DNA of 64,000 nt from Maritalea myrionectae DSM 19524 (GTDB lineage: Bacteria; Pseudomonadota; Alphaproteobacteria; Rhizobiales; Devosiaceae), in contig NZ_AUHV01000002.1 of assembly GCF_000423365.1 (NCBI RefSeq), positions 124,001 to 188,000 of the forward strand, read 5' to 3'. The notes under the pieces were generated by a model. It made no database searches. It worked only from the letters and a program-made list of their open reading frames with translations, and had not been told where the DNA came from. The translations under genes and the position numbers were made by a program. Each line of letters starts with the position of its first letter. Position 1 is the first letter of the stretch. Positions 7,960 through 28,065 of this stretch are shown here, piece after piece.

Positions 7960-8256
7960 ATGGGTGTGCTTTTGTGCGCGCACCCGCCGCCGGTAGTGTG
8001 CTCACGCCAAGTAGCGCCCCCGCAATCTTTGGGCGCAGCTACTCAGGCACACCTTCACTTCCACATCCCCATCGCTGCAAACCCCTTTTTTGGGATGGTG
8101 AAACATGTGGGTGGTGTCAATGCTAACAAAATGGGTGCAGTGGGGTGCGGAAACTCAAATGACACCAACAGAAATCGTAATCCACGGCCGGAGCATCCAT
8201 GCATAGCTTTGACCGAGATCAACACGACCTAACACGCCCATGCTAATCTTTTTGGC
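7960..8256. other. Spacer without a recognisable gene
   Basis: About 300 bases between the helicase terminator and the next gene. Short open frames cross it, but none has a good ribosome site or a familiar sequence. The stretch 7975-8060 is rich in C and G, the rest is mixed. I see no tRNA, SRP RNA or other known RNA. Confidence 0.5.
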
Positions 8257-9192
8257 ATGACCCAGGATGAAATCATCGATTGGCTTTTGGCGGGTGATCC
8301 GGCCATTCAATACCAAACCTACCGCGATTTGCTTGGCGAAGAACGGCCCGAAATTCGTGCGCGCATTGCAACGGAGGGGTGGGGCGCGCAGTATTTGGCG
8401 GCGCGGAAGCCCGACGGGGTGTGGGGCGATCGCTTCTATCAACCCAAATGGATCAGCTCGCATTATACGCTGCTGGATCTGAAATTGTTGAATATTGCCC
8501 CCGATCATGACCCTATCCGCGATAGCATCCGCAAGATTTTTGCTGAGCAAAAGGCCGATGATGGCGGGATTCGGTGCGGGTATTCCCACCCCCGCAGTGA
8601 TGTTTGCGTCAACGGCATGGTGCTGAACTATGCCAGCTATTTTGGCACCCCTGCCCCTGATGTGGCATCAATCATCGACTTTTTGCTCGGCCAACACATG
8701 CAAGATGGCGGTTTTAACTGTATGTCTAACCGTTCGGGCGCGCATCACAGCTCGTTGCATTCCACCATCTCTGTGCTGGAAGGCATCCACGAATATTTGC
8801 GCAATGGCTACACCTATCGCGCCGACGAATTAAAGGCCTGCGCAGCTGCGGCACGCGAGTTCATTTTGCTGCACCGTTTCTATAAGTCGGACCATACGGG
8901 TGAGATTATTCGCAAAGACTTCTTGCAACTCAGCTTTCCACCGCGCTGGTACTACAATATTTTGCGGGCCCTCGATTATTTTCAGGCGGCGCAGATCCCA
9001 TGGGATGATCGAATGCAAGATGCAATAGATGTCTTGCGCACCAAGCGGCGAAAGGATGGCCGCTGGCGCACCGAGGCTGCGCGCGCGGGACAAGTACATT
9101 TCAAAATGGAAAAAGGCCGCCAACCCAGCCGCTGGACCACTTTGATGGCGTTGCGGGTTCTTCACGCCTATGGGCAACAGGACGGCAAATGA
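8257..9192 (+). CDS. Terpenoid-cyclase/prenyltransferase-fold (alpha-alpha toroid) protein
   Basis: A 311-residue soluble protein with no signal peptide. It has repeated Q/D-G-G segments of the kind that build alpha-alpha barrels: ADDGGIRCGYSHPRSDVCVNG (about 97-117) and MQDGGFNCMSNRSGAHHSSL (about 149-168), then a helical repeat ending RRKDGRWRTEAARAG. These resemble squalene-hopene cyclase and prenyltransferase beta-subunit repeats, but it is half the cyclase length and I do not see the catalytic DXDD motif, so cyclase activity is not claimed. The cysteine/histidine-rich middle could bind a metal. It stands alone between a helicase and a minus-strand membrane gene. Function is unknown. Confidence 0.65.
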   Translation: MTQDEIIDWLLAGDPAIQYQTYRDLLGEERPEIRARIATEGWGAQYLAARKPDGVWGDRFYQPKWISSHYTLLDLKLLNIAPDHDPIRDSIRKIFAEQKADDGGIRCGYSHPRSDVCVNGMVLNYASYFGTPAPDVASIIDFLLGQHMQDGGFNCMSNRSGAHHSSLHSTISVLEGIHEYLRNGYTYRADELKACAAAAREFILLHRFYKSDHTGEIIRKDFLQLSFPPRWYYNILRALDYFQAAQIPWDDRMQDAIDVLRTKRRKDGRWRTEAARAGQVHFKMEKGRQPSRWTTLMALRVLHAYGQQDGK

Positions 9193-9204
9193 TTTGTGTG
9201 CTGA

Positions 9205-9585
9205 TCACGTGAGGCGCAAATAGGAACGTGCTTTGTTGAGCAGTTTCAGCATTAGAAAAGACAAGATGTAGGAACTGACGACCACCGCCATGAACTTTTT
9301 CGCATCTGTGCTCGGCCAAAGATAAATCATCACTGCGCCGTGCCCGACCAGCATCGCGATAAGTGCAATTTTGACATGGCGAAATGTCGAAATAAGCAGG
9401 CCGAGCGCCGTTATCGCGGCAAACAGCTGGTGCGTATAGTGAAGTGTAATGCCAAACCCTACGCCTCGCGATGTGCCAAAAACATTTATGATTGACGCGA
9501 TGATTTGGGACAATATCCCCCAGTCAATAGCCGCAAGCAATACAATCAAAAATGCGCTGAGAAGAATATTTTTCGACGTTGCCAT
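9205..9585 (-). CDS. Hypothetical four-helix membrane protein
   Basis: A 126-residue protein I do not recognise. It has about four membrane helices (roughly 8-30, 45-62, 66-82 and 88-112) and a basic C-terminus (KLLNKARSYLRLT). The start is set at the ATG at 9585; a longer frame reaching 9723 would run over the end of the HD-GYP gene and adds a non-family basic stretch. It follows the HD-GYP gene by 47 bases on the same strand and could be cotranscribed with it. No function can be given. Confidence 0.6.
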   Translation of the reverse strand: MATSKNILLSAFLIVLLAAIDWGILSQIIASIINVFGTSRGVGFGITLHYTHQLFAAITALGLLISTFRHVKIALIAMLVGHGAVMIYLWPSTDAKKFMAVVVSSYILSFLMLKLLNKARSYLRLT

Positions 9586-9632
9586 AAGTGCGATTTTCAA
9601 ACTTCTCTTAGAAGACGTCGAATATTCAGACG

Positions 9633-11030
9633 CTATACGGCCGCTTTCAGCTCGCCTGCATGGTTTTCTATCGTCGGCAATTGGTCGAATTTGGCAATCG
9701 CTGCGCAAAGGGCGGTGAAGCAATTGCGGTCAATGGCGTCATCCACCATTTCGCGCATAATGCCGAGTGCTTTTTCAACCGGCATGGCCGCGCGGTAAGG
9801 TCGATCCGCGGTCAAGGCGTCGAAAATGTCGGCAACGGTCACGATGCGCGTGTCCATATCGATCTGATCGCCCTTAAGACCGTTGGGATAGCCTTTGCCA
9901 TCCAAACGTTCATGGTGACCGCCAGCGACAGGTGCGATGTCGCCAAAAGCTTTGATGTTGGCCAATATCTCCATGGAAAAAACGGGGTGCTTTTTGATTT
10001 CTTTGAACTCATCCTCATCCAGCCGCCCTGGCTTATCGAGCACGGAGTTGGACACACCCAGCTTGCCAATATCGTGCAACAGGGCCGCACGGCGCAACCA
10101 GCGGCGTTTTTCTGCTGAATAGCCCATCTGCTCGGCAATCAGATCGGCGAATAATGTCACCCGTTCGGAATGGCCCGCTGTGAAGGGGCTTTTGCTGTCG
10201 ACCACCTGCGCAAAGGCTTGAGCAATGTCGTCCAAATAGTCTTCGTCGGCGATGCGTGCGCCCTGGCCGGGCTCAAATTCATAAATGACATTTGAAAGGT
10301 CATCTCGTGCCAAGGTTTTCCAATAGGCTTGGTCATCGGCCAACGCCAAAAAAGCATCGGCCACCTTTGGATCAAACCAACTGCCGGACCGCGATTGCAC
10401 GGCATTGATCGCTTCATCACGACCGTCATTCATATAATAAACGTCAACCACTTGCCCCAGCAGTGCGATTTGCGAATAAAGCGGGATTTCCGGGCCTTTC
10501 AGCTTGTCGGGCTGTCCCCGACCATCCCAATGTTCATCAAGATTCAAAATCCCCTGCTGCACATTGTCGTTGAAGTGCATTTGCCGGGCGATTTCTGCCC
10601 CGCGCTGACACCGTGTTTCCAGCAGTTCACGGGTGATCTCGCCACCATGGCGCAGCGTGCTGACAATCGAGCGGAATCGGTCGGCCATACTGGCTTTGAC
10701 CCCCGATTGGGTGATCACAAAATTTAAGACCTGCGGCAGGCTCCCATCAACCTTTTTAAACTCTCGTTTAAAGGTCAAATCGTCGGCCAGATAGTGCGCG
10801 CAGATGCGCGCTGCATTGCTGGAACAGCCCAAGTCTTTCAGCAAAATCGTGTAATAGAGGTCGGACAATTGCGCTTGGGTCAGCCCAAGTTTTTGCCCGA
10901 CATTGATGCCGGTCCAACACGCGCGGACGCAGTGGCCAACGGGCTGACCTTCAGTGATGTCCAGCGCATGGCTGAGCGCGGAAAGCAGTTCGGCCACGCG
11001 GATTTTGGTTTTTGGCTGCGCAGGTGCCAT
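9633..11030 (-). CDS. Tandem HD/HD-GYP phosphodiesterase-type protein
   Basis: A 465-residue cytosolic protein with no membrane segment. The C-terminal half (about 265-440) is an HD-GYP domain: HD at 319-320 in LLHDIGKLG, HHExxDGxGYP at 372-382, and DIFDALTADRPYR. These residues bind metals and predict cyclic di-GMP (or cGAMP) hydrolysis to GMP. The N-terminal half (about 25-235) looks like an older copy of the same fold in which the HD pair is K-D (LLKDLGCSS, about 64-72) and the later motif is LDEHWDGRGQPD (about 164-175), so it is probably regulatory. It lies 75 bases after the RsmB-like gene and its own promoter is likely. Confidence 0.88.
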   Translation of the reverse strand: MAPAQPKTKIRVAELLSALSHALDITEGQPVGHCVRACWTGINVGQKLGLTQAQLSDLYYTILLKDLGCSSNAARICAHYLADDLTFKREFKKVDGSLPQVLNFVITQSGVKASMADRFRSIVSTLRHGGEITRELLETRCQRGAEIARQMHFNDNVQQGILNLDEHWDGRGQPDKLKGPEIPLYSQIALLGQVVDVYYMNDGRDEAINAVQSRSGSWFDPKVADAFLALADDQAYWKTLARDDLSNVIYEFEPGQGARIADEDYLDDIAQAFAQVVDSKSPFTAGHSERVTLFADLIAEQMGYSAEKRRWLRRAALLHDIGKLGVSNSVLDKPGRLDEDEFKEIKKHPVFSMEILANIKAFGDIAPVAGGHHERLDGKGYPNGLKGDQIDMDTRIVTVADIFDALTADRPYRAAMPVEKALGIMREMVDDAIDRNCFTALCAAIAKFDQLPTIENHAGELKAAV

Positions 11031-20074: not shown

Positions 20075-22426
20075 ATGTTTAAAAGACTAATAGAGACCAT
20101 TCGATCCGAGAAAAACCTATCCGCGACCATCCGGGCGCAGCTTGTTGATGGGCTTTTTCACCCGTTTGCCTCCCTTATTTCCGGCGCAGTTGCCGGTCTT
20201 TTTATCGCGACGGTTCTGTCCTTCACCGCGAATGATGCGCTGGTGGAGAACATGGCGTATGCCGTTGTTATTATTGCATTGGGCCGCATCGCGCTTGGCG
20301 TTTACTATTTGCGCTCTGGCCAACCTGTTACACCGCAAAATGTCAATCAATGGGAATGGGCCTACGCCATTGGCGGCACCGCGTTCTCATTGTGCTTGGG
20401 CATGGTGACATTCTTTGCGGTATTGCGCATCGACAATGGTGCCATCCATTTGATGCTGACCACGACCACAGCGGCCTATGCGGCCTCTATTGCCGGTCGA
20501 AATGCCAGCCGCCCTTGGGTGGCGCTGGGTCAGCTTTACTTTGCATCCGTGCCTATGGGCCTGGGCTTGGTGCTGCACGATACTGTGTTTTATGAGGTTG
20601 TGGGTGCCGCGTTGCTGATTTTCATGTTCGGCATGACGGACATTACCTTGGCCGTGCGCAAAACCATTATCAATGCGCTTGAAACTCGTGAACTGAACAA
20701 GGAATTGGCTGACTCCTTCGAACAACAAGCAAATCTGTTCGACGGGGCGCTGAAAAACATGTCACACGGCCTTTGCATGTTTGACCGGGATAATAAGCTC
20801 TTGGTTTGGAACCCCATCTTATGTGAAATTTTAGGGTGCCCACCTGATCGATTGCGCAAGGGTGAATCATTTCAAGAAGTGCTCACGCTGATCCATCCGG
20901 CAGACCGGGATCATTTTGCCTTCAATGGCAATGTTGAAACGGACAAGGCCAAGGCGAACTTTGAGCAAACGGTTCAGCTAGAGGATGAGCGGTTTGTTGA
21001 TGTGTCCTCGCGACAAACTTCAACGGGCAACCGCGTGTTGGTGTTTGCTGACGTCACCGAGCAGAAAAAAGCCGAGGCGAAAATCAGAAGCCTGGCTTTG
21101 GTCGACCAGCTGACGGGCTTGATGAACCGCACCTCCTTGCAAACTGCGTTTCGCGACGTGTTGGAGAACAACACCACTGATCAAGAAGTTGCTGTTTACT
21201 TCATCGACCTTGATCACTTCAAAAATGTGAATGACACATTGGGCCACCCTGTGGGCGATGATTTGCTGCAGCAAGTGGCCAAGCGCATTTGCGATGTCTG
21301 CATGGATGAGTGTGACGTTGGCCGGATGGCTGGCGACGAGTTTTTGGTGATCCAAAAACTCTCCCCTCACGCGCGCACCCCTGAAATTTTGTCCAGCCAG
21401 ATTATTGATGCGCTCAAGCAACCGTTCAATGTTGCCTCTCACTATGTTCGTATTGGCGCTTCGATCGGCATTGCGATTTCACCGAAGGACGGCACAGATT
21501 CGGGCCTCTTGTTAAAACGTGCCGATATGGCGCTTTATGCCGCTAAGAACTTTGGCCGGAACCGTTTTGAGTTCTTTGAACCTAAAATGGACCAAAAGGC
21601 ACAACAAGTCCGCGCGATGGAATTGGACATCAAATATGCGCTGGAAGCGAACCAATTCCGCCTGGCCTTTCAGCCTATTGTTGACGCGAACACATTTGAA
21701 ATTTCGGGATTAGAAACGCTCATTCGCTGGACACACGAAAAACGTGGCCGCGTTGCCCCGTCCGTGTTTATTCAGGTGGCCGAACAGACTGGCCAGGTGA
21801 TTGAGATTGGTCGTTGGGTTTTGCGCGAAGCGATACGCCAAGCCTCAAAATGGCCAACGGACACGCCAATTGCAGTCAATTTCAGTGCCGTGCAATTCCA
21901 AGACACTGACTTTCCTAAATATCTGAAATCGCAATTGCGTCGCTATAAACTGGCGCCGGAGCGGGTGGAACTGGAAATCACAGAAACAGCGTTTTTCCAA
22001 GATGAGGTTGCCACACTGGATATTTTGAATCAGTTCCAAGCGATCGGCGTCAAAATCTCGCTGGATGACTTTGGCACAGGTTTCTCCTCACTGTCTCAGC
22101 TGCGCACGTTCCCCTATCACAAGATCAAAATTGATGGGTCCTTTGTGCGGGACCTGGAAACAAATGCCAGCTCCAAAGCAGTGGCAACGGCCGTGGCCCA
22201 TATCGGCCAAGCGCTCAATATCCGCGTGGTGGCAGAATGTGTTGAATCGAAAGAGCAGCTTGAATATTTGCGCGACGCAGGCGTTAGCGAAATTCAAGGT
22301 TTCCATTTATGTCGTCCATTGAACAATGAAGACATTGTCAGCCTATTGGAAATTGGCAAAGGGAAGTTTGACCGCGATTTTTTGAAAGAGATCGCTGAGC
22401 GCAGCGATAAAACCGCCGCGCAATAG
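20075..22426 (+). CDS. Membrane-anchored PAS-GGDEF-EAL protein (c-di-GMP turnover)
   Basis: A 783-residue inner membrane protein. Residues about 30-195 hold five or six helices with short loops, a membrane sensor of no named type that I can identify. A PAS domain of the FDGALKNMSHGLCMFD type covers about 220-335. The GGDEF domain (about 340-500) has the A-GDEF signature at 419-423 and no RxxD inhibitory site. The EAL domain (510-755) reads E547-T-L, N602, E634/E637, D664-D665 in LDDFGTGFS, K685, E721 and Q741, so the phosphodiesterase residues are present although E-A-L is E-T-L. Both synthesis and hydrolysis are possible. It faces the RpfF-like crotonase gene with only 36 bases between their ends. 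Confidence 0.9.
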   Translation: MFKRLIETIRSEKNLSATIRAQLVDGLFHPFASLISGAVAGLFIATVLSFTANDALVENMAYAVVIIALGRIALGVYYLRSGQPVTPQNVNQWEWAYAIGGTAFSLCLGMVTFFAVLRIDNGAIHLMLTTTTAAYAASIAGRNASRPWVALGQLYFASVPMGLGLVLHDTVFYEVVGAALLIFMFGMTDITLAVRKTIINALETRELNKELADSFEQQANLFDGALKNMSHGLCMFDRDNKLLVWNPILCEILGCPPDRLRKGESFQEVLTLIHPADRDHFAFNGNVETDKAKANFEQTVQLEDERFVDVSSRQTSTGNRVLVFADVTEQKKAEAKIRSLALVDQLTGLMNRTSLQTAFRDVLENNTTDQEVAVYFIDLDHFKNVNDTLGHPVGDDLLQQVAKRICDVCMDECDVGRMAGDEFLVIQKLSPHARTPEILSSQIIDALKQPFNVASHYVRIGASIGIAISPKDGTDSGLLLKRADMALYAAKNFGRNRFEFFEPKMDQKAQQVRAMELDIKYALEANQFRLAFQPIVDANTFEISGLETLIRWTHEKRGRVAPSVFIQVAEQTGQVIEIGRWVLREAIRQASKWPTDTPIAVNFSAVQFQDTDFPKYLKSQLRRYKLAPERVELEITETAFFQDEVATLDILNQFQAIGVKISLDDFGTGFSSLSQLRTFPYHKIKIDGSFVRDLETNASSKAVATAVAHIGQALNIRVVAECVESKEQLEYLRDAGVSEIQGFHLCRPLNNEDIVSLLEIGKGKFDRDFLKEIAERSDKTAAQ

Positions 22427-22455
22427 CTTTCAATTTGCATAGCTTATGAATTACC

Positions 22456-22490
22456 GCGCCCGCTACTCTGCAGCGGGCGCAGCTTTTTTA
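22456..22490 (+). terminator. Rho-independent terminator overlapping the end of the crotonase gene
   Basis: GCGCCCGCT (22456-22464) pairs with AGCGGGCGC (22472-22480), loop seven bases, followed by AGCTTTTTT. It serves the plus-strand GGDEF-EAL gene but the stem covers the stop codon and the last codons of the convergent crotonase gene. Confidence 0.85.
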
Positions 22491-23416
22491 GACTGGGCAG
22501 CAACAAGTCGCTGCATCACTTTTAGCTCTCGGGAAGAAATACGCATACCGGCATCCGCCCACAGCGAGACCACGTCATCCAACTCTTCAAATGGAATTGG
22601 ATTGGCCCGCTTCACGGCCTTACGGTAGGTGCAAAGGGCAGCTTGCTTTTGCTCGTTCTTGGCAATGAAACGCTGAACCGTTTTCAGCCCCTCACCCTTT
22701 TCTGCCAAAATATGCACAACGCCCATTTCGTATAGCTCTTCTGCGCTGAGCGTGCGGCCCGTGCGCACCAATTGCTCGGCTTTGGCAAAGCCCAAGGACC
22801 GCCCCAGGAAGGTGAGCGCGCCCATGCCGGGGAACAGGCCAAACATTTGCTCAGGAAACCCAAACTTGGTGCCCTTCTCGGCGCAAATATAGTCAAACGA
22901 CAATAGGGATTCAAAGCCACCGCCAAGCGCATCGCCCTGCACCAAACCAATGGTCAGGAGTTCGCTATCAATGCTGCGCCAGTTCTTGTGCAATATTTCG
23001 ACGCAGGATCGACCATAGGCATAGAGCCCGTCGCGATCCTTTGAGTTGATACAGTGGGAGAAATAGTCAAGATCGCCGCCCAAACAGAAGAAATCTGGAT
23101 GCCGAGACCCGAGCACAACAAATTTGAAGTGCTCGCCCATTTCCTCTTTCAATGACCGAATATTGTAATGCCAGCCATGGAAATCATCGAGCAAAGCCGG
23201 ATTATAAGCGGCCCGCCCCTCGAAATTCATGAAGCTCCACAAGGTGCTGTGGGAGATATCAAATGCATTCTCCAGTTGACCAAGCTCTGGCCAAAACCGG
23301 TTTGAAAGATTTGAAGGTGCTGCTGATCGCGGCATCAGCACCGTGTTTTCATTTTTTGGATTTTGTTCGCCTACAAAGTCGGAACTCGGCAGGCTGAAAG
23401 CTGCATTATCTGACAT
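22463..23416 (-). CDS. RpfF-like crotonase, candidate DSF (fatty-acid signal) synthase
   Basis: A 317-residue crotonase that matches the RpfF family rather than ordinary enoyl-CoA hydratases. It has KFVVLGSRHPDFFCLGGDL (about 98-116), SKDRDGLYAYGRSCVEIL (125-142), LVQGDALGGGFESLLS (158-173), GFPEQMFGLFPGMGALTFLG (186-205), then AEELYEMGVVHILAEKGEGL and PIPFEELDDVVSLWADA. The two catalytic glutamates are E169 and E189, 20 residues apart as in Xanthomonas RpfF (E141 and E161). RpfF makes cis-2-unsaturated fatty acids from acyl-ACP for cell-cell signalling. The N-terminal 45 residues are a variable extension. It is convergent with a membrane PAS-GGDEF-EAL gene. The product was not tested. Confidence 0.78.
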   Translation of the reverse strand: MSDNAAFSLPSSDFVGEQNPKNENTVLMPRSAAPSNLSNRFWPELGQLENAFDISHSTLWSFMNFEGRAAYNPALLDDFHGWHYNIRSLKEEMGEHFKFVVLGSRHPDFFCLGGDLDYFSHCINSKDRDGLYAYGRSCVEILHKNWRSIDSELLTIGLVQGDALGGGFESLLSFDYICAEKGTKFGFPEQMFGLFPGMGALTFLGRSLGFAKAEQLVRTGRTLSAEELYEMGVVHILAEKGEGLKTVQRFIAKNEQKQAALCTYRKAVKRANPIPFEELDDVVSLWADAGMRISSRELKVMQRLVAAQSKKAAPAAE

Positions 23417-26269: not shown

Positions 26270-26293
26270 TCCTATATGAGGCGACTATTTATA

Positions 26294-26842
26294 ATGAATG
26301 TAAAAACCATCTGTCTCGCCATTTTGACTCAAGGCGAAACCACCGGATATGACATTCGCAAGCGCTCTACAGAGGGCGACTATGCCTATTTCATGGAAGC
26401 CAGTTTTGGTTCCATATACCCTGCTTTGTCCAAATTGGAGGAAGAGGCATATGTCACCAGCCGCACCGTGGCACAAGAGGGAAAACCCTCTAAACGTGTC
26501 TATAAGATCACGCCAACCGGGCGCGAGTTTTTCATCAATTCGCTTTATGACGAATTGAATGATGATGTCTTCCGCTCCGAGTTTTTGCTTTTCCTCCGCT
26601 TTGTTGAAGACCTGCCCCGCTCGTTGGTGGAAAAACGCGTCAATGAACGCATCGCCAAATGCAACGACGCGATTGAGAACGTCAAAAAGCTGGAAGAAGA
26701 ATTTACCAAGCCCTCAGAACGCTGGGTTTTGAATTTCGGGCAGCACTGCATGCGCAGTGCCCGCCAATATCTAATTGACAATAAACAAGAAATAATCGCG
26801 CTGGCCAAGCAAGAAGATGTGCCTGCCCGCGCGGCCGAATAG
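26294..26842 (+). CDS. PadR family transcriptional regulator
   Basis: A 182-residue repressor-type protein. Residues 1-85 form a PadR winged helix (LAILTQGETTGYDIRKRS, SFGSIYPALSKLEEEAYVTS, RVYKITPTGREFF), the usual family signature. Residues 90-180 are a helical C-terminal domain with coiled-coil character (NERIAKCNDAIENVKKLEEE). The start is ATG 26294; one six codons upstream adds a basic tail and lies in the operator. PadR proteins bind phenolics or drugs and usually repress a neighbouring pump. It lies 11 bases upstream of the RND genes, probably in one operon, with a candidate operator before it. Confidence 0.9.
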   Translation: MNVKTICLAILTQGETTGYDIRKRSTEGDYAYFMEASFGSIYPALSKLEEEAYVTSRTVAQEGKPSKRVYKITPTGREFFINSLYDELNDDVFRSEFLLFLRFVEDLPRSLVEKRVNERIAKCNDAIENVKKLEEEFTKPSERWVLNFGQHCMRSARQYLIDNKQEIIALAKQEDVPARAAE

Positions 26843-26853
26843 GGACGAGATTT

Positions 26854-28065
26854 ATGCGATTTCTAATGTCATATGGCGTTGCATTCCTGCTGTTGGTGGG
26901 TATCGGCGGTTGGATGGCCTCTGGTTACCTGGTGCAAGGCGGGCAAGGCCCCGGCAATGGCGAAACACAAGCGCTTGATGCGGTCGACTTGCCCGGCGCG
27001 GACAAAGCCAAAGACTTAATGACAGAGTTTGGCTTGATCAAAAGCGACGAAGAACAAGCTGCTGAAGATGAAGTGGCCCAAGCAGAAGCTGAAGCCGAAA
27101 CAGCCGCTGCCGAAGAATTGCAGGCGGTGCGCACCCGCACATTCACAATTCAGCCTTTGCCGCTGGAAGTGACCCTTCGCGGCAACACGGCGGCAAAAGC
27201 CACCCTCTCCATTCGGGCCGAGACCACCGGCATTTTGGAGAGCCGCCACGTTGATAAAGGCGATGTTGTGAAGGCAGGCGATCTGCTGTGCTCGATCGAT
27301 GCGGGCACGAGACAAGCACGCCTGGCGCAAGCTGAGGCAAGCTACGAACAAGCGAAAGCCGATTTCGAGACCAACAAAAAGCTGCGTGAAAAGGAATTTG
27401 CCCCGACAAACTCAGCCGCGGCTTATGAGTCCAGCTTGAAAGCAGCTAAGGCGCAGTTGGATGAAGCCAAGGCAGAATTGGCCCGCACTGAAATTTACGC
27501 GGAAGCCGGTGGCATTGTGCAGGAGCCAATGGCACAGCCGGGTGACATGTTGTCCGCTGGTGGCCCTTGCGTGACGCTGGTGCAGATGGACCCGTTGATC
27601 TTTGTTGGTGATGTCGCAGAAAGCAATATTGATGCGGTGCGCATTGGCTTGCCTGTGACAGTTAAAACCATCACTGGACGGGTAATTGAAGGCAAAGTGG
27701 CCTATATTAGCCCCACAGCCAACACAGCGACACGCGCTTTCCCAGTGGAAGTTGAATTGCCGAACCCCAATCATTCGGTTCGCGCAGGACTTACCGCTGA
27801 AGCAAGTGCTGTTTTGGGCACTGTGCCGGCGCATTTGATCCCCCAATCTGTGCTGACATTGGACAATGACGGCACCTTGGGCGTGCGCGCGGTGAAGGAC
27901 GGTGAAGTCAGCTTTCATCCGATTGAAATCGTCCAAGACAGCCAACAAGGCATTTGGGTGACCGGATTGCCCGAAAGCATCAACATCATCACCGTTGGGC
28001 AGGAATATGTTGTCGCTGGCCAACAAGTGTTGGCCGACAATGAAACTGAGGAGACAACATCATGA
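26854..28065 (+). CDS. RND efflux membrane fusion protein
   Basis: A 403-residue periplasmic adaptor. One N-terminal membrane anchor (about 5-27) rather than a clean signal peptide, then an acidic stretch with D-E repeats (60-85), the lipoyl/hairpin region (TLSIRAETTGILESRHVDKG to LLCSIDAGTRQARLAQAEAS, about 110-165), a coiled-coil hairpin and beta-barrel (FVGDVAESNIDAVRIG). It would join the inner membrane pump with an outer membrane channel. No TolC gene is in the window. It overlaps the RND gene by four bases (ATGA), coupling translation. The negatively charged linker after the anchor is unusual. Confidence 0.9.
   Translation: MRFLMSYGVAFLLLVGIGGWMASGYLVQGGQGPGNGETQALDAVDLPGADKAKDLMTEFGLIKSDEEQAAEDEVAQAEAEAETAAAEELQAVRTRTFTIQPLPLEVTLRGNTAAKATLSIRAETTGILESRHVDKGDVVKAGDLLCSIDAGTRQARLAQAEASYEQAKADFETNKKLREKEFAPTNSAAAYESSLKAAKAQLDEAKAELARTEIYAEAGGIVQEPMAQPGDMLSAGGPCVTLVQMDPLIFVGDVAESNIDAVRIGLPVTVKTITGRVIEGKVAYISPTANTATRAFPVEVELPNPNHSVRAGLTAEASAVLGTVPAHLIPQSVLTLDNDGTLGVRAVKDGEVSFHPIEIVQDSQQGIWVTGLPESINIITVGQEYVVAGQQVLADNETEETTS

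Follow-up and report, generated by a model that had tools for sequence, protein, structure and literature searches.

Two convergent genes of Maritalea myrionectae DSM 19524, one for an RpfF-like crotonase and one for a membrane protein with PAS, GGDEF and EAL domains, probably constitute a diffusible cis-2-fatty-acid signalling module with a one-protein membrane receptor that would act mainly as a phosphodiesterase of cyclic di-GMP (c-di-GMP). They lie in a stretch of 64,000 nucleotides (assembly GCF_000423365.1, contig NZ_AUHV01000002.1, positions 124,001 to 188,000 of the forward strand), called the window here and numbered from its first letter. To judge from sequence, the module is conserved and of RpfF type, and its partner is of a third kind, neither RpfC nor RpfR; the pair seems to be a form, as yet undescribed, of a known circuit by which cells signal to one another. 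Excerpts of the literature describe diffusible signal factor (DSF) signalling from betaproteobacteria, gammaproteobacteria and certain acidophiles, where RpfC and RpfR are the two core receptors; among the matches listed from the open-licence literature in PubMed Central, none describes an rpfF of Alphaproteobacteria or a membrane-bound PAS-GGDEF-EAL protein as its partner. The features concerned are as follows.

22463-23416, minus strand: crotonase gene of the RpfF family, 317 amino acids, putative cis-2-fatty-acid signal synthase (open reading frame, family models, PDB alignment, tree)
22910-22912, minus strand: codon of catalytic E169, corresponding to E141 of Xanthomonas RpfF (3m6m alignment)
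22850-22852, minus strand: codon of catalytic E189, corresponding to E161 of Xanthomonas RpfF (3m6m alignment)
20075-22426, plus strand: membrane PAS-GGDEF-EAL gene, 783 amino acids, putative signal receptor and c-di-GMP phosphodiesterase (open reading frame, Pfam, conserved partner)
20075-20719, plus strand: N-terminal membrane module, residues 1-215, with six long helices between residues 32 and 215 (alignment, model)
20750-21076, plus strand: PAS_7 domain, residues 226-334 (Pfam PF12860, 60.9 bits)
21095-21565, plus strand: GGDEF domain, residues 341-497, motif AGDEF (Pfam PF00990, alignment)
21626-22318, plus strand: EAL domain, residues 518-748, motif ETL (Pfam PF00563, 232 bits, alignment)

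Every sequence block of RpfF that an earlier note, made from the DNA letters alone, had listed for the crotonase (LGSR, CLGGDL, DRDGL, FGLFPGMGA, EEL and LW) was found in the translation. The note had also placed both catalytic glutamates at the RpfF spacing of 20 residues, and E169 and E189 do align with their counterparts in the RpfF chain 3m6m (Xanthomonas RpfF positions are taken from this alignment, as chain numbers minus 16). W286 aligns there with W258 of Xanthomonas RpfF, a residue that we take to have a functional role. In an alignment of 28 sequences that includes the window's, all have E189 and W286 and nearly all have E169; both RpfF glutamates are described as critical in excerpts of two papers (PMC9040811, PMC4504480). 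Three comparisons within the genus gave nonsynonymous rates (dN) of 0.07–0.08 and synonymous rates (dS) of 1.3–3.1 for the gene. Two divergent crotonases elsewhere, at loci L147 and L154, adjoin a membrane GGDEF-EAL gene; the one at L147 is 28% identical to that of the window and has an aspartate aligned at the first catalytic glutamate.

Family models and structures place the protein in the same group. It scores 317 bits against NCBIfam PRK08788 (NF006452), above the cut-off of 177, and its best four PDB sequence matches are 6dgn and 3m6m, both named RpfF, and the crotonase-family entries 5fus and 7zq7. Of these, 5fus is named a putative enoyl CoA hydratase and is nearly identical to 6dgn in the alignments; the matches after the top four are other hydratases at about 57 bits or less. 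The RpfF equivalog model NF053515 gives 179 bits, below its cut-off of 550. Nor is 550 reached by any of eight further family members that we scanned over their matched part only: two linked to RpfR-type genes score 181 and 182, two linked to RpfC/HD-GYP genes 546 and 329, and four alphaproteobacterial members 216–237. Because the RpfR-linked members score so low, the missed cut-off is no argument against an RpfF-like function, nor does it set the window protein apart from those members.

A tree against ordinary hydratases had been put forward as a test, and it separates the two groups. Built with a careful method, it holds 66 of the 103 crotonases in our census (see below) and seven ordinary hydratases of the window genome, the other 37 rows having been set aside as near-duplicates, contig-end rows (among them L131, L179 and L182), one of odd composition (L106) or divergent (L123, L147, L154, L183, L201, L202). 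All 66 RpfF-family crotonases are split from the seven hydratases with support 100/99. The window crotonase falls in a clade of 13 rows, every one of them with a GGDEF-EAL gene tail-to-tail (12 complete and L137 cut). The five RpfR-linked rows form one clade of their own (100/100), nested in a 13-row clade of other classes (99/98). Since the RpfR-linked crotonases are thus separate, the RpfR-type and window-type PAS-GGDEF-EAL partners were probably recruited independently, as far as these sequences tell.

The second proposed test, conserved linkage of the crotonase with the GGDEF-EAL gene, also came out positive. The two genes of the window are tail-to-tail with their stop codons 36 bp apart; the genome has 3.54 Mb and 14 EAL genes, and the chance of an EAL gene lying convergent downstream of a given gene is about 0.2% (with roughly 3,400 genes, an estimated number). 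No GGDEF, EAL, kinase or receiver (REC) match at E <= 1e-5 lies within 1.5 kb of any of the seven ordinary hydratases. Among 41 relatives, nine have the crotonase at E <= 1e-30, and the eight best partner matches (E <= 1.6e-66) are in eight of these nine carriers, each adjoining the crotonase; in the ninth carrier, G033, an RpfC-like gene lies nearby. A further 17 genomes of this set lack the crotonase and have partner homologues that match less well (E 2e-19 to 4e-11). The crotonase family was found in 55 of 397 genomes sampled from the window's order and in 24 of 385 sampled from its class. The nine best partner matches in the 397 order genomes (E <= 1.7e-58) are all in crotonase carriers, with the genes adjacent in eight; in the remaining one, G201, they are on different contigs and the crotonase contig ends 585 bp downstream. 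The clade includes a tenth carrier, G243, whose partner is cut at a contig end (L137). The next matches are those of family f28, five pairs with both genes on one strand (E 3e-40 to 2.5e-36). Altogether the tail-to-tail pair is present in 13 of the 103 census loci, spread over five family codes. Because this pairing is conserved, we consider the crotonase and the membrane protein to be functionally linked.

The partner itself has the architecture that had been read from its letters: PAS_7, GGDEF and EAL all score above the Pfam cut-offs, and in the structure model the N-terminus forms six long helices packed in a bundle, with a predicted local distance difference test score (pLDDT) of 91.8. 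The whole-protein model is at pLDDT 85.3 and a predicted TM-score (pTM) of 0.51. We aligned 16 partner sequences, 11 of them tail-linked (the window's among them) and five same-strand linked. The EAL residues E547, N602, E634, D664, D665, K685, E721 and Q741 are invariant in all 16; we take these eight to be the EAL catalytic set, with a spacing that agrees with RocR. The GGDEF motif reads AGDEF in the four sequences of the window's genus and GGDEF in the remaining 12. On these residues the partner is likely a phosphodiesterase-biased protein. Its membrane module has no Pfam family at the cut-off (the best of many weak matches, in one member of the alignment, has E 0.015), no PDB homologue by sequence profile (the top match, a calcium-channel subunit, has E 0.11) and no fold match in Foldseek at E <= 0.001. 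The highest TM-score by query length among the 50 fold matches listed, 0.58, belongs to a structure that its title names as ImcA of Pseudomonas aeruginosa (PDB 8wcn), at a nonsignificant Foldseek E of 1.3; this weak likeness is a hint only, and 8wcn is absent from the profile search matches listed.

To see the pair in its family context, we surveyed the neighbourhoods of 103 crotonase loci: the window plus 102 others, comprising the complete sets of 55 carriers from the order and 24 from the class (25 places), five further relatives and 20 of 64 phylum places. Two class genomes are also in the order set, and eight more of the 64 phylum places were already included; the 36 left out are mostly of family f231. 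The sample is not random. Single-query phmmer searches assigned the domains, except HD-GYP, which was recognised by its sequence motif, and ten partner proteins were checked with Pfam. A sensory gene is tail-to-tail with the crotonase at 75 loci, mostly an RpfC-like kinase (54 loci). Besides the 13 membrane PAS-GGDEF-EAL loci there are seven with another GGDEF-EAL gene (six RpfR-type and L137, cut at its contig end) and one with another kinase. Outside this layout, a GGDEF-EAL gene is on the same strand at ten loci, an RpfC-like gene is arranged otherwise at three, four reach a contig or stretch end, and 11 have no sensory partner in any counted layout; among these 11, an RpfR gene follows one gene later at L189, and a REC-kinase gene lies upstream at L164. 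The six pair loci of the window's genus have flanking clusters in common, and the seven outside it (L107, L108, L110, L118, L119, L124 and L143) have none in common with the genus; only L118 and L119 have one together.

The second gene beside the 54 tail-to-tail RpfC-like kinases encodes REC-GGDEF-EAL at 29 loci, HD-GYP at nine and REC/kinase at 14, and none was seen at two. The 29 REC-GGDEF-EAL genes, which follow hybrid kinases in 28 loci of the window's order (L113, L115, L125 and L152, for example) and in L180, put an EAL domain in place of the HD-GYP phosphodiesterase at the position of Xanthomonas RpfG; by Pfam, the one in L115 is REC-PAS-GGDEF-EAL. The 14 REC/kinase loci (L163, L165-L169 and L171-L178) come from other alphaproteobacterial families, and Pfam confirmed a REC-PAS-histidine kinase in L163, L169 and L171; the expected output at these loci is therefore not a c-di-GMP enzyme. 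L178 has, besides its tail-to-tail kinase, a second RpfC-like hybrid kinase (8142-10490) that lies upstream of the crotonase. At the five f28 loci (L112, L121, L126, L128, L133) a membrane PAS-GGDEF-EAL gene lies upstream of the crotonase on the same strand.

A receptor tree of 48 rows, built by a quick method, has all 13 tail-linked receptors on one side of a branch (SH-aLRT 97) and the homologues from crotonase-free genomes elsewhere. Two rows, L037 and L039, sit on branches of length 10, which probably reflect wrong reading frames, and L038 is long; all three are outside the linked clade. The f28 same-strand partners cluster among the unlinked homologues (support 91, unstarred), which suggests a further independent recruitment.

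How the pair relates to the described systems can be judged part by part. It resembles RpfF/RpfR, the Burkholderia DSF (BDSF) system of Burkholderia, Cronobacter and others, in having an RpfF-family crotonase convergent with a PAS-GGDEF-EAL protein and in an expected output of c-di-GMP hydrolysis. The window partner, however, is membrane-bound, as the earlier note had recognised: a six-transmembrane (6-TM) module stands where the soluble RpfR has its N-terminal FI domain, and FI is absent. The signal-binding residues of RpfR (S169, N172, Y183, R187 and N202, from an excerpt of PMC6361424) score 0/5 in each of the 13 linked receptors, with the distant PAS alignment uncertain, and 5/5 in six RpfR-type controls, at exactly those numbers in L192; the RpfR identity of the controls rests on the same five residues. 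An RpfR identity of the partner is ruled out by the missing FI domain, the PAS residues and the position of its crotonase outside the RpfR-linked clade.

With RpfF/RpfC/RpfG, the DSF system of Xanthomonas and relatives, the pair shares a crotonase convergent with a sensor gene, a membrane sensor and a c-di-GMP phosphodiesterase output, but the window partner has no histidine kinase, receiver, Hpt or HD-GYP domain and is one protein instead of two. RpfC-type membrane sensing was rejected, since the window module is unrelated to 18 RpfC-like N-termini (hhalign probability 0.4%) and the kinase domains are missing. The alphaproteobacterial RpfC-like systems, with a REC-PAS-GGDEF-EAL or REC-kinase protein, share with the pair the crotonase family, the tail-to-tail layout and, often, an EAL output, yet they are two-component relays as opposed to a single membrane protein. 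Published excerpts have RpfR restraining RpfF through its FI domain (PMC6361424) and RpfC doing so through its REC domain (PMC13220807). The window partner has neither domain, so that any restraint of the synthase must use another contact.

By identity of the crotonase, Maritalea mobilis (88%) is the closest named relative, before M. mediterranea (87%), M. porphyrae (66%) and a Devosia metagenome-assembled genome (63%); these point to the order Hyphomicrobiales. Eight neighbouring genes that we scanned belong to different families (MFS, FtsJ, Ppx-GppA, GST, quinolinate phosphoribosyltransferase, inositol-phosphatase family, PadR and HlyD). At 26276-28065 a PadR-type regulator gene is followed directly by an HlyD-type membrane fusion gene. 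One further feature lies between the paired genes.

22456-22480, plus strand: terminator-like hairpin in the convergent junction, overlapping the end of the crotonase gene (pattern match only)

It has nine pairs, eight of them G-C, and a T-run after it; 16 terminator-like sites occur in the region where 5.9 are expected.

In the signalling module that we favour, the crotonase would dehydrate a 3-hydroxyacyl-acyl carrier protein, cleave the thioester and release a cis-2-unsaturated fatty acid, as its family and active site suggest. The neighbouring membrane protein would sense this signal through the 6-TM module, the PAS domain or both, and sensing would alter the activity of the EAL phosphodiesterase, so that c-di-GMP falls. 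A single membrane protein would thus take the part that RpfC and RpfG play together in Xanthomonas and that the soluble RpfR plays in Burkholderia. Several observations weigh against this proposal. No fatty-acid site is identifiable in the partner, because its PAS domain has none of the five RpfR residues and its membrane module is unlike that of RpfC. The 11 loci with no sensory partner count here too, as do the support of only 88/89 for the 13-row crotonase clade and its basal or sister rows L170 and L203 (family f64), which have no sensory neighbour that we could see; together with these two rows the clade has support 100/99. A partner homologue in the non-carrier G371 (E 2e-36) is within the range of the same-strand linked type, and of 57 order genomes with a partner match at E <= 1e-20, only 18 are crotonase carriers and 39 are not. 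The architecture is therefore widespread, with only the close lineage tied to the crotonase. The synthase and receptor distances correlate at 0.94, a value uncorrected for species relatedness.

We also weighed three other explanations. The pair could be functional through protein contact or lipid state, with the crotonase freeing fatty acids as a thioesterase and the membrane protein responding to the lipid composition of the cell's own membrane and not to a diffusible signal. The large membrane module with no recognised signal site would fit this, as would a statement, in an excerpt of PMC4517397, that Stenotrophomonas RpfF could have unspecific thioesterase activity as Burkholderia RpfF does; we nevertheless think it unlikely, both core systems with a convergent partner being cell-cell signal systems in the part of PMC4504480 seen. 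Alternatively, the crotonase makes a signal that another protein senses, and the neighbour is a c-di-GMP enzyme co-selected for output. The genome's 14 EAL proteins leave room for this, and homologues with the same N-terminal part occur unlinked in crotonase-free genomes (the 39 just mentioned), which makes the receptor architecture not specific to the signal. Against it, the convergent operon or gene holds the sensor in Xanthomonas (rpfF/rpfGHC) and Burkholderia (rpfF/rpfR), according to excerpts of PMC4504480 and PMC6361424, and no RpfC-like membrane domain was found elsewhere in the window genome (best E 0.39; the search was for this domain and for no other kind of DSF sensor), so that we rate it as very improbable. 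We give hardly any credence to the crotonase being an ordinary beta-oxidation enzyme in an accidental neighbourhood. It does have the crotonase fold and a curated family name of merely crotonase/enoyl-CoA hydratase, and adjacency within the genus alone proves little because the flanks are syntenic there. That explanation has to contend with the tree split from the ordinary hydratases, with a pair retained amid different flanks across five family codes, and with members of the same crotonase family that adjoin RpfC-like or RpfR-type genes elsewhere.

Our survey suggests that related modules occur in a notable share of the window's order (55/397) and in the wider class sample (24/385), and that one or more of their partner types are distinct from both RpfC and RpfR. 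We offer tentatively, as something short of an even bet, that synthases of the RpfF family act as a portable module to which unrelated receptors have been recruited independently, the majority feeding c-di-GMP phosphodiesterases, and that the window lineage represents a new class of fatty-acid signal receptor, a one-component integral-membrane 6-TM/PAS/GGDEF/EAL protein that would detect the signal at or within the membrane. Provided that the chemistry is as proposed, many environmental bacteria, a large group, would gain a testable fatty-acid language, and one synthase family repeatedly paired with different c-di-GMP phosphodiesterases would amount to a natural experiment on receptor swapping.

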